From NCBI RefSeq assembly GCF_021919345.1, contig NZ_CP089293.1:1-64000 (forward strand): a stretch of DNA of 64,000 nucleotides, read 5' to 3'. The DNA is from Paenarthrobacter nicotinovorans (GTDB taxonomy: Bacteria > Actinomycetota > Actinomycetes > Actinomycetales > Micrococcaceae). Shown here in pieces: positions 15,386 to 47,306 of the stretch; position 1 is the stretch's first letter; each line of letters starts with the position of its first letter. Below the pieces are notes generated by a model, which ran no database searches, was not told where the DNA came from, and was given only the letters and a program-made list of their open reading frames with translations. The position numbers and the translations under genes were made by a program.

Positions 15386-15928
15386 ATGACCATTGCAACT
15401 GCAAAAGCAACGATCCACACTACCCTCGGCGACATCAAGGTTGACCTCTTCGGCAACCACGCGCCCAAGACGGTAGCCAACTTCATTGGCCTGGCTACGG
15501 GCGAGAAGTCCTGGAACCACCCCGAAACGGGCGAGGACAAGACCGGAACTCCCCTGTACAACGGCACGATCTTCCACCGGATCATCAAGGATTTCATGAT
15601 CCAGGGCGGCGATCCCCTGGGCCGCGGCGTCGGTGGCCCCGGCTACCAGTTCGATGACGAGATCCACCCGGAACTGACCTTCAACGCTCCGTACAAGCTG
15701 GCCATGGCAAACGCCGGCATCCAGATGGGCAAGGGCACCAACGGGTCACAGTTCTTCATCACCACGGTCAACACCGACTGGCTGTTCGGCAAGCACAGCA
15801 TCTTCGGTGAAGTCACGGATGAGGAATCCCGCAAGGTTGTCGACGCCATTGAGGCTGTCCGCACCGGCATGGGCGACCGCCCCGTTGAGGACGTCGTCAT
15901 CAACAGCATCGACATCGAACAGCTCTAG
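15386..15928 (+). CDS. Cyclophilin-type peptidyl-prolyl cis-trans isomerase
   Basis: This 180-residue cytoplasmic cyclophilin isomerises Xaa-Pro bonds. The catalytic segment FHRIIKDFMIQGGDP and the substrate-pocket segment GSQFFIT are intact. There is no signal peptide. Actinobacteria keep a ppi gene in this part of the origin region (PpiA in mycobacteria), followed by a rhomboid gene as here. Confidence 0.95.
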   Translation: MTIATAKATIHTTLGDIKVDLFGNHAPKTVANFIGLATGEKSWNHPETGEDKTGTPLYNGTIFHRIIKDFMIQGGDPLGRGVGGPGYQFDDEIHPELTFNAPYKLAMANAGIQMGKGTNGSQFFITTVNTDWLFGKHSIFGEVTDEESRKVVDAIEAVRTGMGDRPVEDVVINSIDIEQL

Positions 15929-15948
15929 TCATTCACTGAGCTGAATCC

Positions 15949-16803: not shown

Positions 16804-16854
16804 CAGGCTGCCCGATGCTTGGACTGGCCCCCACGCTCGCTGCTTTTCCGACCT

Positions 16855-17475
16855 TCAGTCCGTAGGGCGCACGACTGGCTGCCTAAGGATTGTCCTGAGC
16901 CTGTCCGGGGCAGTACGCCGGGGATCACCGAGGTAGATCTCATGGTGCCTCCCCGCCATGGCCAGTGAATGCTCCGGTATGAACCTGTTGTGCATCTCAT
17001 CCAGTACGGGGCCTTCGTCGTCGTAGGGGCCAACGTGAAGTGTCTGCACGCTCAAACCCTCTTCCAACGATTCCAGACGGAGTGCATCTACGGCAGGAGC
17101 CGCTCCCTTGTCGGCGACCGACCTGCACGCTGCCTCCATGTGTTCCTGTGTAAGCCACTCGGGAACCATGTTCATCAACGTCCATGACCAGAGTGATTTA
17201 TCCCGGGCGCTGGTGAAGGAATCCATGTCTTCGGCCCACCACAGGGCTTCCAGCGGCATGACACCATAATCACGCGCGAGCTCACCCTTGCTGAAGAACT
17301 TCAGTTTGTAGGCGACCGGATAAAGGGTCGACAACGCGTCCTTGTACGCCTGGGCAGTGTTGGGGTCACCCTTGCCATCGATCATCAGGTACTGCATGGG
17401 CGGGACGGTAAGCAGGGAAAACCGTCCCTTGGTCGCACTGTAGGCAGGTATCAGTTTCTTGAGGTCGGTCTTCAT
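16855..17475 (-). CDS. GyrI-like small-molecule-binding domain protein
   Basis: This 206-residue soluble protein matches the GyrI-like family, with the pattern TVPPMQYLMIDGKG near the N-terminus and a C-terminal half containing HVGPYDDEGPVLDEMH. These domains bind hydrophobic ligands or hydrolyse cyclopropanoid toxins in known cases; the role here is unknown. The frame is open upstream to 17568, but ATG 17475 begins the conserved part (MKTDLKKLIPAYSATKGRFS). The DnaA-box cluster begins about 55 bases upstream, so DnaA could influence its transcription. Confidence 0.8.
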   Translation of the reverse strand: MKTDLKKLIPAYSATKGRFSLLTVPPMQYLMIDGKGDPNTAQAYKDALSTLYPVAYKLKFFSKGELARDYGVMPLEALWWAEDMDSFTSARDKSLWSWTLMNMVPEWLTQEHMEAACRSVADKGAAPAVDALRLESLEEGLSVQTLHVGPYDDEGPVLDEMHNRFIPEHSLAMAGRHHEIYLGDPRRTAPDRLRTILRQPVVRPTD

Positions 17476-33463: not shown

Positions 33464-33546
33464 GCGCGAGTGGCGGAACGGCAGACGCGCTGGCTTCAGG
33501 TGCCAGTATCCGAAAGGGTGTGGGGGTTCAAATCCCCCCTCGCGCA
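33464..33546 (+). tRNA. tRNA-Leu (CAG)
   Basis: An 83-base class II tRNA. The acceptor stem GCGCGAG pairs with CTCGCGC, the anticodon stem-loop CTGGC-TTCAGGT-GCCAG gives anticodon CAG, and a long variable arm follows. The T-arm contains GGTTCAAATCC. Discriminator A is at 33546 and CCA is not encoded. Confidence 0.98.
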
Positions 33547-33554
33547 CGCAATCG

Positions 33555-33612: not shown

Positions 33613-34311
33613 CTAGCTGCGGCCGGAACCTGCCAGCCGGCGTCGTGAGTTGCTGAGGTGAAGGCGCATGGCTGCCGCGGCAGCAACGGGATCGCCGTCC
33701 GCGATTGCTGCGTAGATAGAGGAATGCTCGTGGACCACTTGATCGAAGCGTTCGCGGGTTTCCCGGTCATCCCCGCCGACGAGGCGTGGGCGGGGCATAG
33801 TGATCATGGTCTGGCCGAGGGCGGCGATGCAGTCTGTATAAAAGGGGTTGCCTGAAGCCGCAGCCACAGCACGATGGAACTCGAAATCAGCTTTCATGGC
33901 GTGCGCCGGATGCGAAACGTTCGCAGTGAATTGTTCCAAGGCACCGTGGACGGCCTTGAGTTGTCGTTCGCTGTGGTTCCGGGCAGCAAGGGCAGCTGCC
34001 TCTGCTTCGACGCCGATCCGGAAGTCGAGCATCTGCAGCCGTTCTTCCATGCTGGACACAGGCCGGGTTCCCGGTGCCTGGGTCGGACCTTCGGCGGGCG
34101 GAGTCAGGGCAAAGCTGCCCCGCCCACGTTCGGTTTCCACAAGGCCTTCGGCCTGCAGCCGCGTCAATGCGGAGCGGACCACGGTTCGGCTCACCCCGAA
34201 TTCGCTGATGAGGGTGTTCTCGCTGGGGAGCTTCTCGCCCGGTTGGATGACGCCGTCGACAATGCGGTTGCGGAGGTCGGCGGCGAGATCCGCAGTCAGG
34301 TTTCGGCTCAT
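33613..34311 (-). CDS. FadR-subfamily GntR transcriptional regulator
   Basis: This 232-residue repressor has an N-terminal winged helix (LPSENTLISEFGVSRTVVRSALTRLQAEGLV) and a C-terminal all-helical FCD ligand domain. It lies ten bases after the dehydratase gene on the same strand, so it is co-transcribed. It most likely controls that gene in response to a sugar acid. A candidate operator matching the FadR-family consensus lies at 35507-35517. ATG 34311 is preferred over the upstream start, which would overlap the dehydratase. Confidence 0.9.
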   Translation of the reverse strand: MSRNLTADLAADLRNRIVDGVIQPGEKLPSENTLISEFGVSRTVVRSALTRLQAEGLVETERGRGSFALTPPAEGPTQAPGTRPVSSMEERLQMLDFRIGVEAEAAALAARNHSERQLKAVHGALEQFTANVSHPAHAMKADFEFHRAVAAASGNPFYTDCIAALGQTMITMPRPRLVGGDDRETRERFDQVVHEHSSIYAAIADGDPVAAAAAMRLHLSNSRRRLAGSGRS

Positions 34312-34321
34312 GCGTTCCAGA

Positions 34322-35449
34322 TTACGCGCCGAACTCCACGGTTTCGGTGGTCCACGCACGGGCCTGTTCGCTCAACGTGACGCCGAGTCCGGGACGGTCC
34401 GGGACGATCATGCGACCGTTCTTCGTCTCCAGCCGCTCCTCGAACAGCGGGTCCAGCCAATCGAAGTGTTCCACCCACGGCTCGCGCGGGTAGGCGGCGG
34501 CCAGGTGGAGGTGGATCTCCATGGCAAAGTGCGGTGCCAGGCCAAGACCTCTTTCATCGGCCAGTGCCGCCAGGCGCAGGAACTGGGTAATGCCTCCGAC
34601 GCGCGGCGCGTCCGGCTGGATGATGTCGCAGCCGTTGGCGTTGATGAGGCCCTTGTGCTCGGCGACAGAGGCAAGCATCTCACCGGTGGCGATAGGCGTG
34701 TCCAGGAGCTGTGCGAGGTGGGCGTGGCCCTCGAAGTCATAGGCATCGAGTGGTTCTTCGATCCAGATGAGGTTGAATTCCTCCAGTTGGCGGCCCATCC
34801 GCAGCGCCGTTGCCCGGTCCCACTGTTGGTTCGCGTCGACCATGAGCGGAACGTCCCAGCCAATGTGTTCGCGGACTCCCGCCACGCGGCGGAGGTCTTC
34901 TTTGGAGTCGGGCAGGCCCACCTTGATCTTGATGCCGCCGATGCCGTCGTCGATTGACTGCGTGGCGCGTTCCTTGACCTCTGCCAGGGTGGCGTTGAGG
35001 AAGCCGCCGGAGGTGTTGTAGGTCTGGACGGAATCACGGTAGGACCCCAGCAGCTTGGCCAGCGGGAGTCCGGCGCGCTTGGCTTTGAGGTCGTAGAGGG
35101 CAATGTCTATCGCGGCGAGAGCCTGCGTCGCCACGCCTGACCTTCCCACCGAGGCGCCGGCCCAGAGGAGCTTGGTGTAGATCTTGCCGATGTCGTTGGG
35201 GTCCTCGCCAATGATGCCCTCCGCGACCTCCTTGGCGTGGGCGTACTGGGCCGGCCCGCCGGCGCGCTTGGAGTAGCTGAAACCGAGGCCGCGGTGTCCC
35301 TGCTCCGTGGTGATCTCGGCGAAGAGGAACACTACTTCCGTCATCGGCTTCTGCCTGCCGGTGAAGACCTTGGCGTCGCTGATGGGAACGCTGAGCGGCA
35401 GTCGCGCCGTGGACAGTTTGACGTGGCGGATGAGGTCTACGGTACTCAC
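34322..35449 (-). CDS. Enolase-superfamily sugar-acid dehydratase (talarate/galactarate dehydratase-like)
   Basis: This 375-residue enzyme belongs to the mandelate-racemase branch of the enolase superfamily. It has the KxK base motif in GGIKIKVG, metal ligands in MVDANQQW, WIEEPL and IATGEM, and the catalytic His in LAPHFAMEIHLH. The overall pattern is closest to L-talarate/galactarate dehydratases, which take water from a hexarate to give a 2-keto-3-deoxy acid. Substrate choice cannot be fixed from sequence. GTG 35449 has AGGAG seven bases upstream. The downstream GntR gene is probably its regulator. Confidence 0.85.
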   Translation of the reverse strand: MSTVDLIRHVKLSTARLPLSVPISDAKVFTGRQKPMTEVVFLFAEITTEQGHRGLGFSYSKRAGGPAQYAHAKEVAEGIIGEDPNDIGKIYTKLLWAGASVGRSGVATQALAAIDIALYDLKAKRAGLPLAKLLGSYRDSVQTYNTSGGFLNATLAEVKERATQSIDDGIGGIKIKVGLPDSKEDLRRVAGVREHIGWDVPLMVDANQQWDRATALRMGRQLEEFNLIWIEEPLDAYDFEGHAHLAQLLDTPIATGEMLASVAEHKGLINANGCDIIQPDAPRVGGITQFLRLAALADERGLGLAPHFAMEIHLHLAAAYPREPWVEHFDWLDPLFEERLETKNGRMIVPDRPGLGVTLSEQARAWTTETVEFGA

Positions 35450-35488
35450 TGGGTCTCCTAAGGGGCGGGGCATCCTTGCCTACTACTT

Positions 35489-35518
35489 AAGATACAAGCT
35501 GAGTACTTGTATTACAAG
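35489..35518 (-). promoter_or_regulatory. Promoter with overlapping GntR/FadR-type operator
   Basis: Read on the minus strand, TTGTAA (35512-35517) and TATCTT (35489-35494) are spaced by exactly 17 bases, a fair -35/-10 pair for the dehydratase gene. The -35 lies in the inverted repeat CTTGTA-T-TACAAG (35506-35518), whose core fits the FadR-family consensus TNGTNNNACNA. A third half-site TACAAG is at 35493-35498, overlapping the -10. Confidence 0.6.
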
Positions 35519-35830
35519 AAGCTATCCTCGCCCGCTCCCCGAAGAGTCCCGGGATCCTTATGCACCAGTTCGCTGGTCCGGGAATCGTCAGTCGGTTTGC
35601 GGACGCGGGTACCTTCCAGGTCGACGTCCGGCAGGATCTTTGCGATGCCAGCAAGCAGCCACCAGGCCTTCTCCCCGAGCAGGTACATGATGGCGTGGGG
35701 TAACGGTCATTCGAACGATGAAAGCGTCCACAAGAACTCCGAAGGCCATGGCGAAGCCTAGTGGTCGCACCATGGTCACGTGAGAGAAAGATGAAGCCTG
35801 CGAAGACGCTAACCATGATGATGAGAGGTT
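35512..35830 (-). pseudogene. Decayed C-terminus of an MMPL-family exporter
   Basis: Three short reading frames on this strand together spell the last ~100 residues of an MMPL transporter. They are LIIMVSVFAGFIF near 35800, then RPLGFAMAFGVLVDAFIVRMT, then LLGEKAWWLLAGI and AKILPDVDLEGTRVRKPTD, ending at a TAA at 35512. At least two single-base frameshifts separate the pieces (near 35790 and near 35700). The first ~600 residues are absent; the remnant begins just after the hydrolase stop. The stop codon lies in the promoter of the next gene. Confidence 0.85.
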
Positions 35831-35848
35831 GAGCCGAGCAAACCCAGG

Positions 35849-36550
35849 TCAGCTCTTCAGGAAAGTAGCAGTCTCGGCGGCGATCAGCGCCGAATCGTAG
35901 TCCAGGGTGGCCACATGGCCGCTACGGTGCAGCAGGATTTCCTTTGTGGATGCTGAGGACACTCCTTCGAGTGCCTTGAGTGCGGACGTTCTCCCCTGTT
36001 CGCCATCGGCGAGCGACCGGAAAACCAGTAGGGGCGCAGTGACGGAAGGTAGATATCCACCGACGTCACGCCACAGCTGTGATAGCTGTTGGATGGCGTT
36101 CAGCGGCAGCCTCGGGTAGCTGGTGTATTCCACGGACGGGTCCTTCACCTGACTTTGACCGTTGGGAATGCTGCGCAGAATCCCCTTCAGCATCGGCACT
36201 AGCGGCAGGAACGGGTTCTGTACTCCGAGCGACGGATTTACAAGAACAATCCGACTGATGTCGCTGCGCACGGCGCCCGCGCGCAGCGAGAGCGCTCCTC
36301 CAACGGACAGTCCGACCAAGGCGACCTGGCCGGCCGTCGTCGCCTGCTTTGCGGATTCGACGGCGTGATCAACCGACGCATACCAGTCACGCCATGACGT
36401 GTCGCGAAGATCCTGCCAGCGGGTACCATGGCCAGCCAGAACGGGCGTCTCGACATGCCACCCCCGCTCACGCAGGGCGGCGGCGAGTGGAGCCATGCTG
36501 GCAGGCGTGCCGGAGAAGCCATGCACTAGTACGGCCGCGCGGGCGCTCAT
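35849..36550 (-). CDS. Alpha/beta hydrolase (carboxylesterase-like)
   Basis: This 233-residue hydrolase has LVHGFSGTP (oxyanion loop) near the N-terminus, the nucleophile elbow GLSVGG with Ser82, a late Asp in FRSLADGEQG and the catalytic His in LHRSGHVATLD. It resembles bacterial monoacylglycerol-lipase/carboxylesterase enzymes acting on short to medium acyl esters. ATG 36550 overlaps the amidase stop (ATGA). It is the last intact gene of the eight-gene operon. Confidence 0.88.
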   Translation of the reverse strand: MSARAAVLVHGFSGTPASMAPLAAALRERGWHVETPVLAGHGTRWQDLRDTSWRDWYASVDHAVESAKQATTAGQVALVGLSVGGALSLRAGAVRSDISRIVLVNPSLGVQNPFLPLVPMLKGILRSIPNGQSQVKDPSVEYTSYPRLPLNAIQQLSQLWRDVGGYLPSVTAPLLVFRSLADGEQGRTSALKALEGVSSASTKEILLHRSGHVATLDYDSALIAAETATFLKS

Positions 36551-37932
36551 GCCCATCCCGGTGCAAGCCCCAAGGCGCCACGATCGCCGAGGATACGGTC
36601 CACTTCAAGGAGCAACCGGCCTTCGCTGCCATGCCGCCCGCCGATCATCGCCCCGATCGGCAAGCCGTCTGCTTTGCTGACGGGAACAGACACGGCCGGC
36701 ATGCCTGCAATGTTGTACATCGGGGTATAGGGCATAAAGCGGCTCATGGCTGCGAAGCTCTCTTCCTCGTTGGCGGACGTTGTGAATGCCCCACGGAGCG
36801 GGGGCGGGGTGGCAAGCGTCGGCGTGACCAGGAAGTCGACACCCCCGAAGACAAACTCTTCGAGCATGAGTGCCACACCCCGGAACAAGGCCAGCGATTC
36901 GTGGAGTTGCACGCCGGTCACTGCACGACCCTGTTCGCGCATCATCCTCGTGAAGGCTCCCAAGGACGATTCGTCGTCAACCTCGTAGGACGCAGCGACG
37001 ACCGACCAAGTATCACGGAAGGCCTGGGCGACGACGTTGTCCTCGCCCAGCTCCACTGGCACCACTTCATGCCCCATCCGGGCGAGGTCGGAGGCGAGAT
37101 CCTGAGCAGCCCGGACGCATACGGGTGCAGGCTCCAATCCGGGTACCATGGGCCGTACCGAGAGCCCGATCCGGAGTTGGCCCACCTGGCCTTGCCAGGT
37201 CCTCGCTGCGGAGAGATCCCCTGGTGCCTGCCCTGCGATCACGGCCAGTAGCGCCGCAGCGTCCCCGGCGTCACGCGCCAGTACACCCGGGACTGATAGG
37301 CCTGTGACCGCAGGATCGCCAGGGTTTCCGCTCACTGTCCCGTTGCTGGGCCGAACGCCGACCAGCCCGCAGCAGGAGGCCGGAATCCGCACCGAACCGC
37401 CGGCGTCGGTTCCGAGCGCCAGCGGCGCAAGGCCGGCGGATACGGCGGCGGCCGAGCCTCCACTCGAACCCCCGGGAGTGTGCTTCTCTGACCAAGGGTT
37501 CCTTGTGTCCCCGCCGATATGGTTTTCTGCGTGGCAGGAAAGCGCGAATTCCGGCAAGTGGGTCTTGCCAAGTATCGGCTGGTGGGCAGCACGAAGCAAG
37601 CCGACCAGATGGTCATCGCCTACGGCTCCCTCGGTCCGCTCGGCGATGCCCCAGCCGGTGGGGACGTCTTCGACGTCGATGTTGTCCTTTATTGCCACAG
37701 GGACTCCATGGAGTGGGCCAACGGCGTCGGTGCCCTGGCTCCGGATTAGGTGGTCGGCTGCCGCGGCCTGTCGGAGCGCGAGCTCATCGGTTACACGGAC
37801 GTAGGCACCCAGCCGCCCGTCCAGGCGGCTTATCCGGGCGAGGTAGTGCTCGGTCAGCGCGATGGACGTCAGGTTGCCTGATTTGATGAGCGCCGCCTGT
37901 GCCCTTGCGCTGAGCTCATGCAGGGATGACAT
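36547..37932 (-). CDS. Amidase-signature family hydrolase
   Basis: This 461-residue enzyme has the Ser-cisSer-Lys triad of the amidase-signature family: Lys82 in AIKDNID, the glycine-serine stretch TPGGSSGGS (Ser156/157) and Ser180 in GTDAGGSVRIP. It is annotated as an amidase rather than GatA because no gatB/gatC is nearby and it sits in a metabolic operon. The substrate is unknown; an acyl-amide would fit the context. Its 5' end overlaps the upstream gene by 17 bases. Confidence 0.9.
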   Translation of the reverse strand: MSSLHELSARAQAALIKSGNLTSIALTEHYLARISRLDGRLGAYVRVTDELALRQAAAADHLIRSQGTDAVGPLHGVPVAIKDNIDVEDVPTGWGIAERTEGAVGDDHLVGLLRAAHQPILGKTHLPEFALSCHAENHIGGDTRNPWSEKHTPGGSSGGSAAAVSAGLAPLALGTDAGGSVRIPASCCGLVGVRPSNGTVSGNPGDPAVTGLSVPGVLARDAGDAAALLAVIAGQAPGDLSAARTWQGQVGQLRIGLSVRPMVPGLEPAPVCVRAAQDLASDLARMGHEVVPVELGEDNVVAQAFRDTWSVVAASYEVDDESSLGAFTRMMREQGRAVTGVQLHESLALFRGVALMLEEFVFGGVDFLVTPTLATPPPLRGAFTTSANEEESFAAMSRFMPYTPMYNIAGMPAVSVPVSKADGLPIGAMIGGRHGSEGRLLLEVDRILGDRGALGLAPGWA

Positions 37933-38905
37933 TATTTGCCTCCTCGAGTGCCGGGTCGTCGTTGCCCCTCACGACCGACCGCTCCGCTTGCATCGCCAGA
38001 AGCCTGAGCACAAGATGCTTCTGCCAGCCCTCGCCGTGCTGGCCTCGAAGCAATCCTTCGATGAGATCCAGGACCTTGCCGAGTTTGTCGGGCACAAGCG
38101 AGGCGAATGGCCTGGCGGTCACTTCACGCTCGTACGAGGGCCACATGAGGTGGTGATGTGGCAACGACGGTTGGGTGTGGGGCAAGGTGACAGGGTCGAA
38201 GCCGATGAGGCCCAAGTGCTGGAGTGCGCCGTCCTTGCGGCTGTCTCCGATCACGAGCCGCACTTCGTCGAGCGCCAAACTCGTCCTACCCATGGCCAGG
38301 ATGAGGTGCCATGGAATCCGGTCACGATTACTGTCGAGTGGCTCACCACCAGCCCGCACGAACCGTTTGATCTCCCATGTGTCATGCGTGGTTAGCCCGG
38401 TATGCGCGAACCTGCCGAGCAAATCAACGTGATGCGCCGTCTCGACCGGGAACATCTCCCGCCCCGGGGCGTCGAGCAGGCCAGGCTGAGGCAGCTCTGC
38501 CCCGACGAGGGCCAAGTAGCCCTGGATCCGGCCCGTCTCGTCGAGACATACTGCATGGATAGTGTTCTGGGTGCCTTCGACCGGCTCGTGCAGCAGGTTG
38601 AGCCCCCGGGCGAGAGACGCGCTCATCATGCCCAGGTTAAGGAACTCCGCCAACCGGAAGCCAAGGAGTGCCAGAAGTGTCTCCCGATCTACCTGATCGG
38701 TCCTGAAGACCACGGTTGTGAGCCCGTCCCCTACCCCTTCGACGCGGCAGATTGCGTCGTTGCCGAGTTCGCTGGCAAGTGACCTCAGTCGGACTTTCCG
38801 CTGGAAGCCGAGCAGGTGCTGGACATACGCCGCATCAAGCCCGGCCTCGGACTCTTGGGTGGATGTGGCCATCGCCTCATTTGTGGCTGGTTCAGAAGTC
38901 ATCAT
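37916..38905 (-). CDS. Unrecognised protein, possible GNAT/autoinducer-synthase-like acyltransferase
   Basis: This 329-residue soluble protein is not one I can place firmly. The middle section has a GNAT-like run: AVCLDETGRIQGYLALVG reads like the central beta strands of an acyltransferase, and TWEIKRFVRAGG resembles the E-x-x-RF motif of LuxI/FeeM-type N-acyl synthases. It has no membrane helix. The start is uncertain between ATG 38905 and 38902; both lie inside the end of the acyl-CoA dehydrogenase gene. Overlaps on both sides show it is an integral operon member. Confidence 0.6.
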   Translation of the reverse strand: MMTSEPATNEAMATSTQESEAGLDAAYVQHLLGFQRKVRLRSLASELGNDAICRVEGVGDGLTTVVFRTDQVDRETLLALLGFRLAEFLNLGMMSASLARGLNLLHEPVEGTQNTIHAVCLDETGRIQGYLALVGAELPQPGLLDAPGREMFPVETAHHVDLLGRFAHTGLTTHDTWEIKRFVRAGGEPLDSNRDRIPWHLILAMGRTSLALDEVRLVIGDSRKDGALQHLGLIGFDPVTLPHTQPSLPHHHLMWPSYEREVTARPFASLVPDKLGKVLDLIEGLLRGQHGEGWQKHLVLRLLAMQAERSVVRGNDDPALEEANNVIPA

Positions 38906-40109
38906 CGTCGTCCCGGTAGAGGCAGTCCGTGATCCCGAGGGCGAGTGCCTCCGGTGTGCCCTCAAAGATGCGGGTACCGAACGCATCTCGCAGCACTTTT
39001 TCGAGGCCGTACTCTTTCATGTAGCCGCGTGACCCCATGAGCGCGACGGCGGTATTGGCAGTGTCGATAGCCACCCGGTCAGCAAACAGCTTAGCCATGG
39101 CCGGCTCCACTTCCGGCGCGGGCAGTTGCGAATCGACCTTTACAGCGGACCTGAGGTACATCAGCCGGGCTGCCTCGACGTCGATCTTCATATCCGCCAA
39201 CCGGCGCGCGGTCATCTGGTGGTCCTTGAGCAGCTTGCCTCCCTGGAGCCGCTCACCGCACCAGTCTCGGGCCAGCTCGAACGCGTGCCGGGCGATGCCG
39301 GTGGAAACTGCCGCAACCGTGGTGCGGGCCATGTTGCCCTGTGCGATATTGATCGCCGAACCCTGGGCCTCTCCGCCGATGAGGTTGCCTGCTGGCAGGC
39401 GCACGTCGTCGAACCAAATTTCGCTGCCCAGACATGCCCGATAGCCCATTTTGTCCAAGACCACTCCACGCCGGACCCCATCGGCATCCAACGGTACGAC
39501 GATGCAGGTCAGTCCGGTGGCTCCTGGGTAGTCCTCCAGGTTGGCATAGACCGTGGCGAAGGACGCGACAGCACCGTTCGTGATGAAGCGCTTGTGTCCG
39601 TTCAGGACATATTGGTCGCCCTCGCGTCTCAGTGTGGTCCGCATGCGGGCGTCGGCGAAGTGCTGTGGGATCACCAAGTCCGTGCCTGCGTCTTCCTCGG
39701 CAACAGCGTTGCAGGCGAGGACCGCTTTCTCACCCGTGAACTGCGTGAGGAACTGGTCTTGGAGCTTTAAATCGCCGGAGAGCAGAACCGGCGTTTGTCC
39801 GAGCATGGTTGCGCCGAAGGCGAGGGCTATGCCCGGACAGGCCGCCGCCAGTTCTTCCATGGCCACGGCTACGCCGAGGACGCCCACGCCGAGGCCGCCG
39901 ATTTCAATCGGTAACAATGCCCGGGTCAGGCCGATGTCATGGCCCGCCGCGATGACGTCCCAGTCAAAAGCGTCAGCGTCTTGTTGGTCAAGCTCGATCG
40001 CTTTGGGGGCGACAATGTCCTGAGCAAACTCGCGGGCGAGGTCGCGGAACGCGATCACGGAGGCGGGAAGCAGGTCGAAGTTCAACTCGGTCTCAAGAGC
40101 TGCAGTCAT
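38892..40109 (-). CDS. Acyl-CoA dehydrogenase family flavoprotein
   Basis: This 405-residue FAD enzyme desaturates an acyl-CoA or carrier-bound acyl group. Family segments include FGATMLGQTPVLLSG, AVAEEDAGTDL (FAD/substrate region), NGHKRFITNG and GSRGYMKEYGLEKVLRDA. The likely catalytic Glu is in IFEGTPE near the C-terminus. The C-terminus ends with an acidic run (DDDDDF). It overlaps the SCP2-domain gene by four bases. Confidence 0.92.
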   Translation of the reverse strand: MTAALETELNFDLLPASVIAFRDLAREFAQDIVAPKAIELDQQDADAFDWDVIAAGHDIGLTRALLPIEIGGLGVGVLGVAVAMEELAAACPGIALAFGATMLGQTPVLLSGDLKLQDQFLTQFTGEKAVLACNAVAEEDAGTDLVIPQHFADARMRTTLRREGDQYVLNGHKRFITNGAVASFATVYANLEDYPGATGLTCIVVPLDADGVRRGVVLDKMGYRACLGSEIWFDDVRLPAGNLIGGEAQGSAINIAQGNMARTTVAAVSTGIARHAFELARDWCGERLQGGKLLKDHQMTARRLADMKIDVEAARLMYLRSAVKVDSQLPAPEVEPAMAKLFADRVAIDTANTAVALMGSRGYMKEYGLEKVLRDAFGTRIFEGTPEALALGITDCLYRDDDDDF

Positions 40110-40540
40110 GATTCGTCCTTATCTTCGGGAACCAGGGGCTGTCTCGCAACGTCCGCGATGCCATGCGCGGCAGCGATCTGGGGGTAACAGTCGAAAGCAG
40201 GCTGCAGGATCGGGACGAGCTCAAGTACTTTGGCGACCTTGCCCTTGATCCGTACTTTGCCCATGGCCAGTGCGGCTGGCATCAGGAGTGATCCGTTCCA
40301 GAGCTTGTGAGCGGTGTCGCAGCTCATTTTGATGCTGATGGCGGCGGTGTCCGGGGCCTCGTCGCCGCGCAGAACTCCTTCGGGGGATACATGGATGACA
40401 GCGTCAGGGCTGGTGTGCAGGAGACGGACGCTCAAGTTGTTCTCGCGAAGCCCGTCAGTGAAGGTGTTGTCTTCGCTCAGGATGCGGAAGAGTTCGCCGA
40501 AAACGGCGTAGGCGGTCTCGGAGTCAGCGTAAATAGGCAT
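40106..40540 (-). CDS. SCP2 sterol-carrier-domain protein
   Basis: This 144-residue protein consists of one SCP2 domain, a hydrophobic-tunnel fold that binds lipids or acyl-CoA. The typical features DTAHKLWNGSL and GKVRIKGKVAKVLELVPILQPAF are present. In this operon it may present a hydrophobic intermediate to the acyl-CoA dehydrogenase encoded next, with which it overlaps by four bases. It begins 46 bases after the ThiF gene, the only gap in the operon. Confidence 0.85.
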   Translation of the reverse strand: MPIYADSETAYAVFGELFRILSEDNTFTDGLRENNLSVRLLHTSPDAVIHVSPEGVLRGDEAPDTAAISIKMSCDTAHKLWNGSLLMPAALAMGKVRIKGKVAKVLELVPILQPAFDCYPQIAAAHGIADVARQPLVPEDKDES

Positions 40541-40586
40541 GGTGGGACTCCTTGTCGGTTGATGAAAAATGAAAATGATGCGGAAG

Positions 40587-41537
40587 TCAGCGGGGCCGTG
40601 CGTGAGAGATGAGTGAGGCGAGCAGTCGGCCGGCGGCCACTGGTTGCATCACGGATTCGACGAGACGTTGCCGCCAGGGCGAAGCTACGGCGTGGATGTT
40701 GACGGCGATGTGGTGGGCAACCGGCTGTCCGGTCACGATTCGGAAGGCAAGGCCTGTGGCGAGGGCACCGAACTGATCGGCGGCATGCACCAGCTGCGGG
40801 AATGCAAAGCCTTCCTGCCCGCCACTGGCGTGGACAAGCCGGATCAGGTCCCGTGGCACTCGGCGCGCGGGCACCAGCCGGGCCAGCAGGTTCCACATCG
40901 GAAGTGTTTCCATCTGCTCACGAGTGACCTGGCCGTCGAAGATCCGGAGGCCACGCCGGTAATCGTAGACCCTCACATACTGTGCCCCTGACATGTCCCA
41001 TCCGGTGAAGAGCGGGAGTCGCGCCGCCCGGGCACGCTCGTGCAGCAACCCTTTGGCGGCCAACCCACCACGTGTGGTGATGTCGACGCCGTCGATAATC
41101 AGGGCGACGTCATGGAGCAACTCGTCAACGGTGCCCTCCTGCACACCTTCCTCGATGATTTGTATGTCAGCGTGTGGATTGATCGCCCGAGCGCGCTCGG
41201 CCGCGACGGCCGCCTTGTTGCGCCCGAGGTCCCCGACGGTGGCGTTCTGGCGGTTGAGATTGTTGAGTTCATACATGCCGGGGTCGGCTAGGACCAGTCT
41301 TTGGAAGCCGAACCGGATTAGGGGTTCGACGGCGGCCCCGCCAATGGAGCCGCAACCAGCAATGAGAATCCGGGCTTGGACCACTGACTGCTGGTCGGCC
41401 TCGCTAACGATGCCGGTATTCCGGGAGGTCAATACCTTGTAGAACTCATCCGGGTCAAGTGCGCGCGCAGCGGCCGGGTTATCGATTTCAGGCAACTCGG
41501 TATGAGGATCGGCTCGTCCGGTGACAGTGGCCCTCAT
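40587..41537 (-). CDS. Stand-alone ThiF/E1-like adenylyltransferase
   Basis: This 316-residue protein has the E1 superfamily adenylation domain: nucleotide loop GCGSIGG (61-67), Asp85 in LADPG, LNNLNRQ with Arg96, and Lys108 in LGRNKAAV, then IIDGVD (148-152). E1-like enzymes activate a carboxyl end as an acyl-adenylate. No zinc CxxC pairs or RRE domain are seen; only about 55 residues precede the loop. No ThiS or MoaD carrier gene is near, so this is probably a MccB/PaaA-like use of the fold on a small substrate. ATGA overlap with the exporter gene. Confidence 0.88.
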   Translation of the reverse strand: MRATVTGRADPHTELPEIDNPAAARALDPDEFYKVLTSRNTGIVSEADQQSVVQARILIAGCGSIGGAAVEPLIRFGFQRLVLADPGMYELNNLNRQNATVGDLGRNKAAVAAERARAINPHADIQIIEEGVQEGTVDELLHDVALIIDGVDITTRGGLAAKGLLHERARAARLPLFTGWDMSGAQYVRVYDYRRGLRIFDGQVTREQMETLPMWNLLARLVPARRVPRDLIRLVHASGGQEGFAFPQLVHAADQFGALATGLAFRIVTGQPVAHHIAVNIHAVASPWRQRLVESVMQPVAAGRLLASLISHARPR

Positions 41538-43114
41538 GCTGGAGCTTCCTCGGCGGTGCCCTGGATCCTGGTGGGAATCCAGATTGCAGCAGCGAGTGCG
41601 CCGATGAGGAGGATTCCGATGCAGATCCAGAACGTGAGGTGCATGGAGTCCACAAAGGCAGCTTGGGCATTCGCGAGGGCAGCCTCGATAGCTGGGAGCT
41701 GTTTGGGCTCGGATGTTGCCACTTGGTTCAAGACGTATGAGGTGGACCCCAGAGAGTCTTGGGCGCGCTCGCGCAGATCCGCGGGGAGCCAGTCCAACGA
41801 GCCGCCAAGCCGGTTCTGATAGGTCATGGACAGGACCGAACCCATCACGGCGACGCCCAGGGCCGCTCCGACCTGACGCAGGGTGTTGTTGACCGCACCT
41901 CCGACGCCGGCTTTCGCGACCTCGACCGCTGACATGGCCAGTGTGGTGGTGGCCCCCATGACCAAGCCCATGCCAAGTCCGGCGACCAGCAATCCTGCCT
42001 CCAAGAGGATCAACGAAGAGTCCGCGTCGATGACGACGAAGCTGCCCAGCGCTGTAGTCAGGAGCAGCAGGCCGCCGGTGATGGATGCCTTGAAGCCGGC
42101 AATGCGCACCATTGCCGCGCTGTTGATCGCCGAGATGATGGAACCGAACGCGACCGGCAGCAGGATCAGGCCAAGCTCCAGAGGGGAATGGCCGAGTACC
42201 AGCTGGGCGAAAAAGACCAGCAGGAAAGTCCCTCCTGTGAGCGCGAAAAAGGCTAACGAGATCGAGAGCGTCCCGCCGGCGAATGCCGGGCTCCGGAACA
42301 ACGTTATGTCCAAGGCTGGGGACGTTTTGCGCCGTTCGACAGCGACCAGCACCGCTGAAAGCACCAGCCCCAGGAGGATTAGCCCACCAGTACGGGGCGC
42401 TAGCCAGTCAGAAGTCGCGCCCGCCTCGATGACGCCGTACACAAGCGCAGAGATGGCGGCAGCGGACAGTATCAGGCCCGGGACATCGAGGGCCGGTTTG
42501 ACGCTGCTACGGGATTCCGGCAACGCAACGAACAGCAGAACGAGGCAGACGGCGGCCACGGGAAGGTTTATCAGGAATACCGACCCCCACCAGAAGCCTT
42601 CGAGGAGGGTACCACCGATGATCGGGCCTAACGCGACCGAGATACCGCCGAGCGCGGCCCAGACACCCATCGCCTTGCCCTGGTCCTTTTCCGGGATGCC
42701 GTCCTTAATGATGGCCAGTGTGGCCGGAGGTACAACGGCCCCGCCGACTCCCATCACCGCACGCCAGAGGATCAGCTGTTCGGGGGTGACCGCCCAGGCC
42801 GAAAATGCCGATGCAACTGCGAACACTAGGAGGCCCAAGGCCAGCACGCGCCGCCGTCCGTAACGGTCGGCTAGCACGCCTGCGGTGAACATGAGAGCGG
42901 CGTAGACAAGGATGTAGGAGTCCACTGCCCATTGCAGTTGGGACGTCGTCGCGGAGAGGTCGTTCTGGATGTCGCGAAGAGCGACATTGAGGATGGTGTT
43001 GTCCATCATCACCATCAGGAAGCAGACACCGGTTACCAGGAGCAACAAGCCGGGCCGGACTTGTCGTCCACTCGTGATGCCCGAGGCCGGAATTGTGGTG
43101 GATTTCGTAGTCAT
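41534..43114 (-). CDS. MFS transporter, DHA2 (14-helix) drug-exporter type
   Basis: This 526-residue membrane protein has about 14 hydrophobic helices. The motif VDSYILVYAALMFTAGVLADRYGRR (A-like) lies near residue 65 and GVGGAVVPPATLAII (C-like) near 120. These mark the DHA2 proton-driven drug exporters (EmrB/QacA type). Within the operon it is the obvious exporter for the product, or a self-resistance pump. ATGA overlaps on both sides. Confidence 0.92.
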   Translation of the reverse strand: MTTKSTTIPASGITSGRQVRPGLLLLVTGVCFLMVMMDNTILNVALRDIQNDLSATTSQLQWAVDSYILVYAALMFTAGVLADRYGRRRVLALGLLVFAVASAFSAWAVTPEQLILWRAVMGVGGAVVPPATLAIIKDGIPEKDQGKAMGVWAALGGISVALGPIIGGTLLEGFWWGSVFLINLPVAAVCLVLLFVALPESRSSVKPALDVPGLILSAAAISALVYGVIEAGATSDWLAPRTGGLILLGLVLSAVLVAVERRKTSPALDITLFRSPAFAGGTLSISLAFFALTGGTFLLVFFAQLVLGHSPLELGLILLPVAFGSIISAINSAAMVRIAGFKASITGGLLLLTTALGSFVVIDADSSLILLEAGLLVAGLGMGLVMGATTTLAMSAVEVAKAGVGGAVNNTLRQVGAALGVAVMGSVLSMTYQNRLGGSLDWLPADLRERAQDSLGSTSYVLNQVATSEPKQLPAIEAALANAQAAFVDSMHLTFWICIGILLIGALAAAIWIPTRIQGTAEEAPA

Positions 43115-44259
43115 CTAGCAACGGTTCCTTTGGTGATGGCTGCGGGATCGAGCCACTCAGACACCTGACTTCGGGCAAAAGGATGGTCTGCAGAGTGAAT
43201 CGGCACGTGTACCCGCGACTGCGGGACCCGCGAGGCGATCGAGCGCCGCAGGTCCGGCACCGCAAAGCAACGCCGTAACCATCTGTCCGCGTCGTCAGCA
43301 CGGGCACTGAAGTTGGTGCGCCCATGCACGGCTTTGTCATTGTCAACGACCACCATGTCTCCTCCCTCAAGGACGTGGCCATGCAGGTTGGACAGGAGTG
43401 CCTGCCTCAGGTTGGCAAGCGCGCGCTCTCCCTCCGGATACAGAGAGGACATGGCGTGGAAGTCGACGCAGAGCTCCGGATCTGAGGGCGATCCTTGGAG
43501 CACCGCCATCGGGGCGGAAAAGACGTTGTCATCGCCAACGAATGAACTGGCAATTCGAATGCGGAAGATTGGCCGTGCAAGAGTTGTCCGGCTTCCGCCG
43601 TCCAGCCCGGCCAGAGCGCTGCGGATACCGCTTGCGAGCGTCCATGCCTGTCGTTCATGGTCGGCGCGCAGTCCGAGCAAACTGATGAAACGGGGGCGGG
43701 CCGGATGGAAGCCGTCCTCGGTGTGTAACTCAAGGAGGCAGGTGCCGGAGTTCTCCTGCCGGTGCTCAGAGCCTTGGACGGGAACGACGTCCTGGATAAT
43801 CCGGCCTTGCTTCTCGTCGGCATATGAGATGACGTCGCCGAGCACGTTCATCACCATCAGCTGGATGATGCTGGCGATCTCCACGACCCGCCAGCTCCCG
43901 TCGTAATTGCCGGTGCGTGGCGTGATGGGCAGTTCTGCGTCAATGGGCACGTTGCGCAGCAGGAGCGCACCCTCCGCGTTGCCATGATGACGGAATTCGA
44001 GAAGAGTCCTGACGAGCCTGACTGGCGCCTCGCGGTACATGGCAATACTGCAATCAACCATGAGTGCCGAGTCGTCGAGGTGATAGCCAGACGGCCGACT
44101 CGAGTGACGGTGGGCGATTTCCCGTGCTACTTCCGCCAGGTGATCGCGCTCGCTGTTGCTCAAAGCAATGGCAAGCCCCTCCAGCGGCTGGATGGCCCAA
44201 GAGCCTCCATGGCCGTCCTCAACGCGAGGCGTGGGGTGCGTTGCAGGGTTCTCCCCCAT
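43111..44259 (-). CDS. 2-oxoglutarate/Fe(II) oxygenase of the TauD/VioC-AsnO type
   Basis: This 382-residue oxygenase has the iron triad His179-x-Glu181 in LELHTED and His312 in NDKAVHGRTNF, and the 2-oxoglutarate arginine in DRWLRRCF. The HxE (not HxD) form and the segment LHTEDGFHPARP are typical of amino-acid beta-hydroxylases such as VioC (arginine) and AsnO (asparagine). A free or carrier-bound amino acid is therefore the likely substrate. ATG 44259 has AGGAGG six bases upstream. It is the first gene of the operon. Confidence 0.88.
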   Translation of the reverse strand: MGENPATHPTPRVEDGHGGSWAIQPLEGLAIALSNSERDHLAEVAREIAHRHSSRPSGYHLDDSALMVDCSIAMYREAPVRLVRTLLEFRHHGNAEGALLLRNVPIDAELPITPRTGNYDGSWRVVEIASIIQLMVMNVLGDVISYADEKQGRIIQDVVPVQGSEHRQENSGTCLLELHTEDGFHPARPRFISLLGLRADHERQAWTLASGIRSALAGLDGGSRTTLARPIFRIRIASSFVGDDNVFSAPMAVLQGSPSDPELCVDFHAMSSLYPEGERALANLRQALLSNLHGHVLEGGDMVVVDNDKAVHGRTNFSARADDADRWLRRCFAVPDLRRSIASRVPQSRVHVPIHSADHPFARSQVSEWLDPAAITKGTVAR

Positions 44260-44270
44260 TGATTCCTCCT

Positions 44271-44328
44271 ATATAAGTCAGTTTATTCATATAAGTTAAC
44301 TTATATAGAACTTCGACGGAGAGCGCAA
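44271..44328 (-). promoter_or_regulatory. Operon promoter with perfect palindromic operator
   Basis: On the minus strand TTGCGC (44323-44328) and TATAAG (44300-44305) are spaced by 17 bases. The -10 lies in a perfect 18-base palindrome, ATATAAGTTAACTTATAT, at 44289-44306. A half-site copy ATATAAGT recurs at 44271-44278, one palindrome length away. This fits the MarR protein encoded just upstream. The predicted leader is about 35 bases with a strong ribosome site. Confidence 0.7.
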
Positions 44329-44397
44329 GGATGATTCGAGAGAAGACTGCCGTCTTGGGGAAAACGCCCTAAAGCGAGGCTGAGAACTCGTTGATGC

Positions 44398-44856
44398 CTA
44401 AGATGCGAGGGCTTGGCGAGCTCGCCGCAGCAACTCGCGAAGCTGCTCAACCTCGGATTCGGTAAAAGCGTCGCGCAACTCCAGCTCAACCTTTCGAACC
44501 GCCTCGTCGGCCGCTTCCATGACCCGATGGCCTTTGAGGGTCAATGTGGTGGCCAGCGCTCGCGAATGAATCTCGGCCGGCTCCCGTGTGACCAGCGCAC
44601 GTCCTTCGAGCTTGGTCATGATCACCCCCATCGACTGTGGCGTCACATTGACCAGGCGGGCCAGCTGAGCACTTGAGGATCCGGGATTGCATTCAAGCAT
44701 GAGGAGAGCCGCATACTGCGTCGGTGTGAGGTTGAAACCGACAAGCACGTCGGTGACCCGGGCGACGAGTACGGCATCGGACTGGTTGATCAGGGTGGTC
44801 AGTCGGGCGTTTATCTCCTGCTGACGCACCGAAGCACTCATGTTGCGACGCGGCAT
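44398..44856 (-). CDS. MarR-family transcriptional regulator
   Basis: This 152-residue protein has the MarR winged helix: LTPTQYAALLMLECNPGSSSAQLARLVNVTPQSMGVIMTKLEGRALV followed by the wing REPAEIHSRALATTLT. It lies upstream of, and on the same strand as, the eight-gene operon, and is the probable repressor acting at 44289-44306. ATG 44856 has AAGGAGG eight bases upstream; the longer frame to 44907 is less likely. Confidence 0.92.
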   Translation of the reverse strand: MPRRNMSASVRQQEINARLTTLINQSDAVLVARVTDVLVGFNLTPTQYAALLMLECNPGSSSAQLARLVNVTPQSMGVIMTKLEGRALVTREPAEIHSRALATTLTLKGHRVMEAADEAVRKVELELRDAFTESEVEQLRELLRRARQALAS

Positions 44857-45120
44857 CGTCGGGGCCTCCTTGGCGTATATCTCATCCATGGGCGACAGCA
44901 GCCTCAAGTGGGTTCCGGGCAGGCGGACCTCGTCGCGCAGGCGGTGCCGTGGACCTCGGGGGCAAGTTCGACAAGATCACTGTCCTCAAGTTCACATTGC
45001 TATCCCCGCACGGTCAAGCAACACTAGGCCACCTTATAGGATTTTGCCCGGGGCCAGTCTCGCCCCTGCGCGTGCTCGGATTGGCATCGGGAGGGTTCGA
45101 TGCTGTGGTGCCACGCTGCC

Positions 45121-45792
45121 TTACCCCCGCAGAGCCCCAAAGCCCGTAATCAAAGCCTCCAAGCCCAAGCTGAAGGCAATGTCAGTGGGCCGCTCATGCT
45201 GTTCCAAGGCCAGCCGGTCCACGGCGGCAGTGAAGTTGGGGACCTGGTCGGCGAGGGTACCGGCGTCGAAGATGTCCTCAGGTGCGGTGACGTCGTAAGC
45301 GGCCCCGAAGACAAAGGCCTCGATAGCCACAATCGCGGAGATGATTTTCTCCTCCGGGAAGCCTGCGTCGCGGAAGCCGGCCGTCACGGCCTCGTACATG
45401 GCCAGGGTCTTGGGAGCATTGGCGACAGGCAGGACGGCGATGATCGGAATAAGCGGCGTGTGCTCGGAGAACACATCCCTGTAGGACCATGCCCACTTGC
45501 GAACGGCCTCTTCCCAGGGCTCAATCCCGAACGCCGACACATCAACCATCGCGGCCAAGTGGTCCTCGAGCAGGACGAGCACGTCGTCCTTGGAGGACAC
45601 GTGGTTGTACAAGGCAGAGGGGGCTACTCCCAGTGTGCGGGCCAACGCTGCCATGGTGAGTCCGTCGTAACCCTTGCTGCTGATCAGCTTGAGCGCCGCC
45701 GTCGTGATGCCGTCCTGGTCCAGAACCGCCGCCGTTGGTCGGCCGGCGCGGCGCCGGGAAGTGGCGGATGGGGCTGGGGTGGGTTCGGGCAT
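45121..45792 (-). CDS. TetR/AcrR-family regulator, probable controller of putrescine oxidase
   Basis: This 223-residue protein has the TetR helix-turn-helix: TAALKLISSKGYDGLTMAALARTLGVAPSALYNHVSSKDDVL. The C-terminal ligand domain is all-helical. It is divergent from the putrescine oxidase gene, with a perfect inverted repeat at 45873-45895 in the 140-base gap. ATG 45792 with AAAGG upstream is preferred over 45825. Putrescine or a related amine is the plausible ligand, by context only. Confidence 0.9.
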   Translation of the reverse strand: MPEPTPAPSATSRRRAGRPTAAVLDQDGITTAALKLISSKGYDGLTMAALARTLGVAPSALYNHVSSKDDVLVLLEDHLAAMVDVSAFGIEPWEEAVRKWAWSYRDVFSEHTPLIPIIAVLPVANAPKTLAMYEAVTAGFRDAGFPEEKIISAIVAIEAFVFGAAYDVTAPEDIFDAGTLADQVPNFTAAVDRLALEQHERPTDIAFSLGLEALITGFGALRG

Positions 45793-45839
45793 CGGGAGCC
45801 TTTCTGCTGCCTGTGTCCCCAGCATTATTCCATCGGCTC

Positions 45840-45895
45840 TTCACAGCCGCGCACTCAGCCGCTACTATGGAGATAAATGAATGCCATTCATTTAT
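45840..45895 (+). promoter_or_regulatory. puo promoter and TetR-type operator
   Basis: TTCACA (45840-45845) and TACTAT (45863-45868) are 17 bases apart, a reasonable promoter. A perfect inverted repeat with 11-base arms and one central base spans 45873-45895 (left arm ATAAATGAATG), overlapping the predicted start of transcription. That position suits repression by the divergent TetR protein. Confidence 0.65.
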
Positions 45896-45932
45896 TGGTC
45901 AGCCACCAACGGACGGCCACGGAGAGGACATC

Positions 45933-47306
45933 ATGCAGAATCTTGATCGCGACGTTGTGATCGTCGGTGCCGGGCCGTCAGGGCTGACGGCGGCACGTGA
46001 ACTGAAGAAGGCCGGGCTCAGCGTCGCAGTGCTCGAAGCACGCGACCGCGTGGGCGGCCGCACCTGGACCGACACCATCGACGGCGCCATGCTGGAGATC
46101 GGCGGCCAGTGGGTTTCGCCGGACCAGACGGCCCTCATGGACCTGCTGGACGAGCTCGGCCTGAAAATGTACCCACGCTACCGCGATGGCGAATCCGTCT
46201 ACATCGGCGCAGACGGCAAGCGCACGCAGTACACCGGTGACACCTTCCCGGTCAACGAAACCACCAAGGCCGAGATGGACAAGCTCGTCGCCATCCTGGA
46301 CGAACTCGCAGCAGAGATCGGCCCCACCGAGCCCTGGGCACACCCCAAGGCACGCGAGCTGGACACCATCTCCTTCCACCACTGGCTCCGCCGGAACTCC
46401 ACAGACGAAGAAGCCTGCAACAACATCGGCCTCTTCATCGCCGGCGGCATGCTCACCAAGCCCGCGCACGCCTTCTCGGCATTGCAGGCAGTCCTGATGG
46501 CCGCCTCTGCCGGTTCGTTCACGCACCTCACGGACGAAGACTTCATCCTGGACAAGCGCGTCATCGGCGGCATGCAGCAGGTTTCACTGCTCCAGGCAGC
46601 AGAACTGGGTGCCGATGTCGTCCTTAACAGCCCGGTGCGCACCATCAAGTGGGACGACAACGGCGTGACCGTTGTTTCCGAGCAGGCCACCGTCAACGCC
46701 CGTTACGTGATCATGGCCGTTCCGCCGAACCTGTACTCACGCGTTTCCTTCGACCCGCCGCTCCCGCGCCGCCAGCACCAGATGCACCAGCACCAGTCGT
46801 TGGGCCTGGTCATCAAGGTCCACGCTGTGTACGACACGCCGTTCTGGCGTGAAGACGGACTGTCCGGCACGGGCTTCAGCGCCGGTGCGCTGGTGCAGGA
46901 GGTCTACGACAACACCAACTACGGCGACACCCGCGGAACCCTGGTTGGCTTTGTGTCCGACGAGAAGGCCGACGCCGTGTTCGAGCTCAGCGCCGAAGAC
47001 CGCAAGAAGGCCATCCTGGAGTCCATCGCCGGATTCCTGGGCGACAAGGCCCTCACCCCCGAGGTTTACTACGAGTCCGACTGGGGCTCCGAAGAGTGGA
47101 CCCGTGGCGCATACGCTTCCAGCTACGACCTCGGAGGCCTGCACCGCTACGGCAAGGACCAGCACGCGAACGTCGGCCCGATCTACTGGTCCTCGTCCGA
47201 CCTCGCCGCCGAAGGCTACCAGCACGTTGACGGCGCAGTCCGCATGGGCCAGGCAACCGCCGCGCGGATCGTCGAAGCCAACAAACTGGCATCAGTGACT
47301 GTCTGA
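45933..47306 (+). CDS. puo: Putrescine oxidase (FAD amine oxidase)
   Basis: This 457-residue flavoprotein oxidises putrescine to 4-aminobutanal with release of ammonia and hydrogen peroxide. The FAD-binding motif VVIVGAGPSGLTAARE is at residues 8-23, with EARDRVGGRTW after it and the C-terminal GYQHVDGAVRMGQATA. From memory it closely tracks the Rhodococcus erythropolis and Arthrobacter enzymes along its whole length (IGGQWVSPDQTAL, FHHWLRRNS, HQHQSLGLVIKVHAVY). ATG 45933 follows GGAGAGGA. It is divergent from the TetR gene and followed by UspA and APC genes. Confidence 0.93.
   Translation: MQNLDRDVVIVGAGPSGLTAARELKKAGLSVAVLEARDRVGGRTWTDTIDGAMLEIGGQWVSPDQTALMDLLDELGLKMYPRYRDGESVYIGADGKRTQYTGDTFPVNETTKAEMDKLVAILDELAAEIGPTEPWAHPKARELDTISFHHWLRRNSTDEEACNNIGLFIAGGMLTKPAHAFSALQAVLMAASAGSFTHLTDEDFILDKRVIGGMQQVSLLQAAELGADVVLNSPVRTIKWDDNGVTVVSEQATVNARYVIMAVPPNLYSRVSFDPPLPRRQHQMHQHQSLGLVIKVHAVYDTPFWREDGLSGTGFSAGALVQEVYDNTNYGDTRGTLVGFVSDEKADAVFELSAEDRKKAILESIAGFLGDKALTPEVYYESDWGSEEWTRGAYASSYDLGGLHRYGKDQHANVGPIYWSSSDLAAEGYQHVDGAVRMGQATAARIVEANKLASVTV

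Follow-up and report, generated by a model that had tools for sequence, protein, structure and literature searches.

The 64,000-nucleotide stretch of Paenarthrobacter nicotinovorans DNA analysed here (contig NZ_CP089293.1, positions 1 to 64,000; hereafter the window) carries an accessory island of one MarR-family regulator gene and eight minus-strand genes (Table 1). In our judgement, with slightly better than an even chance of being right, the genes of this island direct a short pathway to an amino acid that is N-acylated and carboxylate-activated, in which acylation would be followed by closure of an oxazolone-type ring and by export. The kind of pathway, with its acyltransferase and cyclase logic, is known; an acyl-CoA dehydrogenase in the place of a nitroreductase is a new variation. 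The initial annotation had proposed that the genes build, modify and export, or break down, an acylated amino acid or small peptide-like molecule; the evidence favours building, modification and export of an acylated amino acid, whereas breakdown and a peptide-like product gained no support. Published work is cited by PubMed Central number.

The key enzyme would be the 37916-38905 protein, which the initial annotation had left without a name. Pfam holds no family for it, and none of 30 members of its family matched PF00765 (LuxI autoinducer synthase) or another credible Pfam family at E ≤ 10, in a scan where the HMMER filters drop most matches above about 0.1. Its predicted fold is that of acyl-homoserine lactone (AHL) synthases and FeeM, and the protein is predicted to be an N-acyl amino acid synthase. 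BjaI and FeeM were also among the nearest structures reported for TyzA, the N-acyl amino acid synthase of an acyl-oxazolone pathway (PMC10404671), and by predicted fold the island thus holds a synthase of this type. In sequence, no significant relation to TrzA-type proteins was detected: hhalign of the family against nine of them gave an E-value of 0.097, with a collinear alignment over 169 columns in which the E-x-K motifs were aligned. The only PDB matches of the family's sequence profile, to CFAP20 (E ≥ 0.42), were taken as chance, and PHROGs gave no match for this protein or for the SCP2 protein. A LuxI-class fold, with a MarR gene and a palindrome in the same island, would also suit a signal made in the manner of AHLs and read by MarR. 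We consider such a signal improbable, given that none of the 30 members matched the autoinducer-synthase family and that the nine genes include neither a LuxR nor a sensor kinase gene; moreover, we know of no part played by ThiF, acyl-CoA dehydrogenase, SCP2 or amidase proteins in AHL synthesis.

The candidate cyclase is the ThiF/E1-like adenylyltransferase. In the Tyz and Trz systems, ThiF proteins together with ATP cyclise N-acyl amino acids to oxazolones (PMC12856293), and by sequence the island encodes a member of this family. Pairwise comparison with two TrzS-type ThiF domains showed 30% and 33% identity (E 4e-14 and 2e-17). Residues G61, G63, G66, G67, D85, R96, K108, D149 and D152 are invariant in 9/9 sequences, and D152 aligns with the Asp of an IEECD motif in two TrzS-type proteins and may correspond to TrzS D217, the residue mutated in PMC12856293. 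From the ThiF tree we took only that the nearest rows to the window protein are L042, L004 and L005, as the TrzS rows were mis-cropped, two of them (L059 and L063) probably in the wrong frame, and the inner branches measured 1.8-7.8. TcdA is a tRNA threonylcarbamoyladenosine dehydratase, which forms a ring through the carboxylate of a threonine that is N-substituted (N-carbamoyl) and part of tRNA. It is the best solved relative of the ThiF family (3.9e-18 for the family profile against the PDB) and resembles the proposed cyclase in this ring closure; however, TcdA acts on tRNA, and the aligned part is limited to the adenylation core (profile 38-167). The adjacency of ThiF, an iron oxygenase and a major facilitator superfamily (MFS) exporter, with weak PDB matches of the ThiF protein to PaaA (0.0026) and MccB (0.0012), recalls ribosomal peptides of the pantocin or microcin C kind. 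TcdA, ThiF and MoeB are far closer than either, however, and we ranked this very improbable origin last because the operon's genes leave no space between them for a precursor gene, the largest gap being 46 bp, the 138-bp leader and the island ends not having been examined for short open reading frames.

The island resembles OxzAB, TyzACB and TrzAS in combining an N-acyltransferase, a ThiF-type cyclase and a flavin desaturase (PMC10404671, PMC12856293), all three being candidates in the island. The desaturase, however, is there a nitroreductase-superfamily oxidase, and in the island would be an acyl-CoA dehydrogenase, to which the island adds SCP2, oxygenase, amidase and exporter. In Tyz and Trz, the nitroreductase-type oxidase carries out the desaturation, which cyclisation must precede for TrzS, whereas either order serves for Tyz (PMC12856293). 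The stieleriacine, thalassotalic acid and kyonggic acid clusters likewise hold an N-acyl amino acid synthase, ThiF and a desaturase, but these N-acyl dehydrotyrosine clusters use a nitroreductase and tyrosine or phenylalanine (PMC12479983). No nitroreductase-superfamily flavin oxidase gene lies at the island, the sole PF00881 match in the window's genome being 57 kb away. Among the 21 core loci described below, one has a PF00881 gene within 10 kb, a SagB-family peptide dehydrogenase gene (L008:6382-7647) divergent from the core in Streptomyces sp. or43.

A published anchor was provided by the lipothrenin cluster, litA-S of Streptomyces aureus LU18118 (PMC10616846). Two Streptomyces loci, L037 (1176-13274; assigned by Pfam) and L038 (assigned by BLAST clustering), carry in order the genes for AMP-ligase, R2-like protein, carrier protein, GDSL, GMC, SCP2, acyl-CoA dehydrogenase, 37916-type protein, ThiF, AurF, DUF4873, DLH and TetR. 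This is the order from litD to litQ with lengths within a few residues (PMC10616846), except that neither locus had a gene called for the 85-residue litK, which in lit separates litJ from litL; the 37916-type gene encodes 402 residues in L037, where a longer start was called, 310 in L038 and 311 in LitL. Identity to the best-matching query of our set was 65-66% for the dehydrogenase, 49-51% for ThiF and 32-35% for the 37916-type protein, and the L037 SCP2 protein matched Pfam at 1.7e-5. Since both loci match lit in order and lengths, litI should be of the SCP2 type and litL of the 37916 type, two genes termed hypothetical in PMC10616846. The SCP2, dehydrogenase, 37916 and ThiF genes of the island therefore correspond to litI, litJ, litL and litM, which in lit stand in this order with litK between J and L, and the lit product is likewise an N-acyl amino acid. 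The initial annotation had found no described pathway for the gene set; this no longer holds for these four of the eight genes, nor for the acyltransferase and ThiF pair, which fits acyl-oxazolone logic, whereas for the whole eight-gene set term searches of open-licence PubMed Central, judged mostly from the listings, brought up no visible description.

Deletion of litL abolishes all lipothrenins, and amide formation was proposed for it as a "vague hypothesis"; deletion of litM leaves the L-Thr form only, with the D-allo-Thr forms gone and no other derivative detected, and deletion of litJ has minor effects (PMC10616846). Dehydrobutyrine forms were observed in the producer, and the authors, noting the similarity of LitM to TcdA, proposed a dehydration (PMC10616846). 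The island might accordingly make a product without a lasting ring, namely an open-chain N-acyl-beta-hydroxy amino acid whose alpha-centre is inverted by ThiF, with an oxazolone at most transient and the dehydrogenase acting on the acyl chain. Lipothrenins are themselves open-chain, the core genes are common to both clusters, and a beta-hydroxylase would provide an amino acid resembling Thr in a pathway that does not use Thr. We regard this alternative as unlikely, though worth serious weight: lit's fatty-acyl ligase, carrier protein, R2-like oxidase, GMC oxidoreductase and AurF-type N-oxygenase are absent from the island's nine genes, and the island's AsnO-like oxygenase, amidase and MarR do not appear in the lit gene table.

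For the Fe(II)/2-oxoglutarate oxygenase, the best PDB match was the asparagine oxygenase AsnO (2og5, 6.5e-76), with 258.8 bits against 185.2 for the next. The VioC/AsnO type given in the initial annotation is to be corrected in that the protein stands closer to AsnO than to VioC; the NCBIfam name GntD was rejected (score 186.7, cut-off 345). Residues H179, E181, H312 and R326 are invariant in 6/6 sequences, and we take the first three to be the H-x-E...H iron site and R326 the 2-oxoglutarate arginine. E149, N170, D266 and R330, also invariant in 6/6, presumably correspond to the AsnO substrate residues E125, N146, D241 and R305, a pairing made by hand from alignments with a 24-residue tag assumed. 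Among the five alignments compared, an Asn at the place of N170 occurs in AsnO only, while an aspartate of the D241 type fails to set AsnO apart from related enzymes; therefore, an Asn-like substrate is weakly indicated, by N170. The island oxygenase resembles AsnO (2og5-2og7) in both iron-site and candidate substrate-site residues. However, AsnO serves a peptide synthetase cluster, and no peptide synthetase is encoded among the nine genes.

The remaining enzymes were assigned as follows. Taken alone, the SCP2 protein scored 17.8 bits against Pfam, below the cut-off of 21.3, but the SCP2 model was matched at E ≤ 0.05 by 20 of the family's 22 members, including the one in the window (best 8.2e-8), and an SCP2 fold is predicted, which bears out the initial call. 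The acyl-CoA dehydrogenase has E383-G-T invariant in 9/9 and 1ukw as best PDB match (3.5e-79). The MFS protein matched the EmrB-type TIGR00711 at 5.4e-65 and 220 bits, slightly below the cut-off of 230.2. K82, S156 and S180 of the amidase are invariant in 8/8, and its nearest solved relatives are 6-aminohexanoate cyclic dimer hydrolase (2.8e-87) and then GatA (7.1e-73). We take the oxygenase, ThiF, dehydrogenase and amidase to retain the residues that their activities would require. Amidase, alpha/beta hydrolase, acyl-CoA dehydrogenase, SCP2, DHA2 pump and MarR are each usual in catabolic or detoxifying operons, and the presence of all six could mean that the operon, induced through MarR, serves to cleave and oxidise some amide or acyl substrate and to expel what remains of it. 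This appears decidedly improbable to us, as acyl-CoA ligase, hydratase and thiolase are absent from the island, we know of no catabolic role for ThiF or a LuxI-fold acyltransferase, and the same core stands in a cluster with a proven biosynthetic product, lit.

In the pathway that we favour, the AsnO-like oxygenase would beta-hydroxylate a free amino acid, an Asn-like one at a guess, which would play the part that threonine has in lit. The 37916-38905 protein would then N-acylate the hydroxylated amino acid, a role suggested by its predicted fold and the litL deletion, from a thioester; acyl-CoA is the probable one, since neither an acyl carrier protein nor a ligase is encoded in the island. 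ThiF would adenylate the carboxylate, and the amide oxygen would close on it to give an oxazolone (azlactone), as the TyzB/TrzS chemistry and the litM deletion suggest; the acidic alpha-proton of the azlactone would permit epimerisation, water loss or desaturation. The dehydrogenase may take hydrogen from C-alpha and C-beta, the nitroreductase's step in Oxz, Tyz and Trz, while SCP2 may hold the lipid. Amidase and hydrolase would open or trim the product, the MFS protein would export it, and MarR would sense product or precursor at the palindrome. Azlactones easily lose alpha-stereochemistry, as is familiar from peptide chemistry, and LitM epimerisation and the dehydrobutyrine by-products would therefore be explicable without a separate dehydratase. 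More tentatively, and at clearly less than an even chance, these clusters may represent an actinobacterial acyl-oxazolone branch in which an acyl-CoA-dehydrogenase-family enzyme replaces the nitroreductase and desaturates an SCP2-delivered azlactone (or N-acyl amino acid), a non-CoA substrate with an acidic alpha-proton like that of an acyl thioester, and in which the LitM "epimerase" likewise acts through an azlactone that loses its stereochemistry.

To follow these genes in other actinobacteria, we probed a species-genome collection with a 14-sequence alignment of the 37916 family, which yielded nine loci: two in Micromonospora, four in Streptomyces, one in Kitasatospora paracochleata and two in metagenome bins. 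ThiF used as probe of the genome contigs gave no match. Around the nine loci, tblastn found SCP2, dehydrogenase and ThiF genes in 9/9, amidase in 8/9, MFS in 8/9 (two of these merely 32-34% identical), oxygenase in 5/9, and MarR and alpha/beta hydrolase in 2/9 each. Both Micromonospora loci hold all nine genes in the window's order. The initial annotation had allowed for the genes being scattered and unlinked in all relatives; instead they remain linked, in the nine-gene order in these two and more widely as a core of four (SCP2, dehydrogenase, 37916-type, ThiF).

The ThiF type itself is common: of 7997 candidates scored, at least 778 proteins matched at E ≤ 1e-20. At E ≤ 1e-50, matches were found in 13/295 Streptomyces genomes, 5/250 Micromonosporaceae, 1/232 genomes of the order of L007 and, phylum-wide, 1/296, the window's own; the first of these tallies includes G103 and G106, the second G099 and G100 and the third G102, all previously found by the 37916-family probe. 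A 37916-type gene lay within about 1.5 kb either side of 11 of the 14 Streptomyces matches and was absent there in three, and it was missing in one of the five Micromonosporaceae matches (L047). The core loci, 21 with the window counted and several of them near copies, were chosen by the presence of 37916-type and ThiF genes on region maps of up to 20 kb. The dehydrogenase gene adjoins in 21/21 and SCP2 was recognised in 20/21, that of L038 by likeness to L037; in the exception, L036, a 106-residue open reading frame without similarity to the query set occupies the expected place (4540-4860). The core occurs as oxygenase-MFS-ThiF-SCP2-dehydrogenase-37916-amidase (the window type), as SCP2-dehydrogenase-37916-ThiF-amidase with an MFS gene on the opposite strand, as SCP2-dehydrogenase-37916-ThiF-MFS, with an oxygenase, in L034 also with 2-oxoacid dehydrogenase complex genes and an AMP-ligase nearby, and in the lit type of L037 and L038. 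In L034 an MFS gene stands between the oxygenase gene and the E1 alpha, E1 beta and E2 genes (13875-17330), at a distance of about 2.4 kb; the acyl-CoA donor of that locus may therefore be short and perhaps branched.

Several other loci deserve mention. In L039 (6874-14210) and L047, dehydrogenase, SCP2 and ThiF genes stand with an alpha/beta hydrolase and a SnoaL gene, no 37916-type gene being called; L039 also has a gene for 1061 residues that clusters with genes of L012 and L035. In L007 (7429-9872), a Solirubrobacteraceae bin, the ThiF and dehydrogenase alignments are in pieces in different frames, which reflects decay or assembly error. One Streptomyces genome, G189, has two different core clusters (L045 and L046). 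A ThiF-nitroreductase fusion, recognised by Pfam in L040 (8491-10386) and by likeness in L041 (8526-10418), lies beside a PAS-LuxR gene and a carrier-protein set; we guess that it resembles the ThiF gene of coronafacoyl clusters.

By DNA comparison, the MarR gene and the eight genes are one inserted island with a resident gene on either side, mandelate-racemase-like on the left (34322-35473) and TetR on the right (45121-45825). Across 62 genomes of the genus, the window's included, the former is present in 41 and the latter in all 62. The two lie 9.6 kb apart in the window; among the 40 relatives holding both, 26 keep them collinear with no more than 6 kb between them, 17 with no more than 1.5 kb and seven with no more than 120 bp. 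In blastn against seven of these 26, homology ended at window position 35518/35519 in 6/7 and resumed at 45122-45128 in 6/7, and it is from these two breaks that the inserted stretch is taken to comprise MarR, the eight genes and short ends. In a search of 99 genomes, none of the 98 besides the window's own (60 from the same genus) had a member of the 37916-38905 family, and a plasmid search gave no match; at least 13 database relatives include a Paenarthrobacter protein with 61% identity. A GC anomaly as a mark of recent transfer was not seen (0.61-0.65 in six 2-kb windows, 34001-46000). A tRNA-Leu (CAG) gene lies at 33464-33547, about 2 kb from the left border rather than at it.

Table 1 Features of the island in the window.
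Feature	Position	Strand	Evidence
Accessory island, MarR and eight genes with short ends	35520..45121		homology breaks against congeners
Alpha/beta hydrolase	35849..36556	-	Abhydrolase_6 2.8e-13; GLSVG nucleophile motif at residue 82
Amidase-signature enzyme	36547..37932	-	Amidase 3.9e-94
Unannotated 329-residue protein, candidate N-acyl amino acid synthase, LitL counterpart	37916..38905	-	predicted AHL-synthase/FeeM fold
Acyl-CoA-dehydrogenase-family flavoenzyme, candidate desaturase, LitJ counterpart	38892..40109	-	Acyl-CoA_dh_1 4.7e-33
SCP2-fold protein, candidate lipid or acyl-CoA binder, LitI counterpart	40106..40540	-	family Pfam matches and predicted fold
ThiF/E1-like adenylyltransferase, candidate N-acyl amino acid cyclase	40587..41537	-	Pfam ThiF 4.3e-28
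DHA2-type MFS exporter	41534..43114	-	MFS_1 1.3e-54
Fe(II)/2-oxoglutarate oxygenase, AsnO/clavaminate-synthase type, candidate amino acid beta-hydroxylase	43111..44259	-	TauD 1.4e-10
Perfect 18-bp palindrome ATATAAGTTAACTTATAT, candidate MarR operator	44289..44306		single genomic copy
MarR-family regulator (start possibly further downstream)	44398..44907	-	Pfam MarR_2 1.1e-8

The eight open reading frames (35849-44328) lie as the initial annotation had described them, all on the minus strand and overlapping at six of seven junctions by 4-17 bp: in transcription order, TauD/MFS by 4, MFS/ThiF by 4, SCP2/dehydrogenase by 4, dehydrogenase/37916 by 14, 37916/amidase by 17 and amidase/hydrolase by 10, with a gap of 46 bp between ThiF and SCP2. 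As the order is kept in other genera, this coupling is more than chance. The MarR gene upstream on the same strand and the perfect palindrome ATATAAGTTAACTTATAT, 29 bp before the TauD ATG (44259), were likewise found as described, but the single promoter is a presumption, as no consensus sigma-70 promoter was found in 35400-45200 (1.8 expected). No second copy of the palindrome exists in the 4.48-Mb genome, with up to two mismatches allowed. MarR proteins 54% identical to the window's are encoded at the equivalent place in L004 and L005, where palindromes of 16-18 bp, differing from the window's, lie 36-37 bp before TauD; L042 also has a MarR gene, with no palindrome listed at the equivalent place. 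When the sequences preceding the oxygenase gene were compared, no palindrome proved common to the islands.

These results predict a fold and a role for a protein family that has no Pfam entry and, with it, for LitL, whose step had stayed hypothetical (PMC10616846). Azlactone formation by ThiF would offer one mechanism for two reports not linked in their visible texts, the epimerisation by LitM and the cyclisation by TyzB and TrzS. The core also points to compact actinobacterial clusters, of which the window's form does without peptide synthetase or polyketide synthase. If it is true that the dehydrogenase uses an azlactone, a familiar family of fatty-acid enzymes would gain a substrate class that annotation would hardly suggest.

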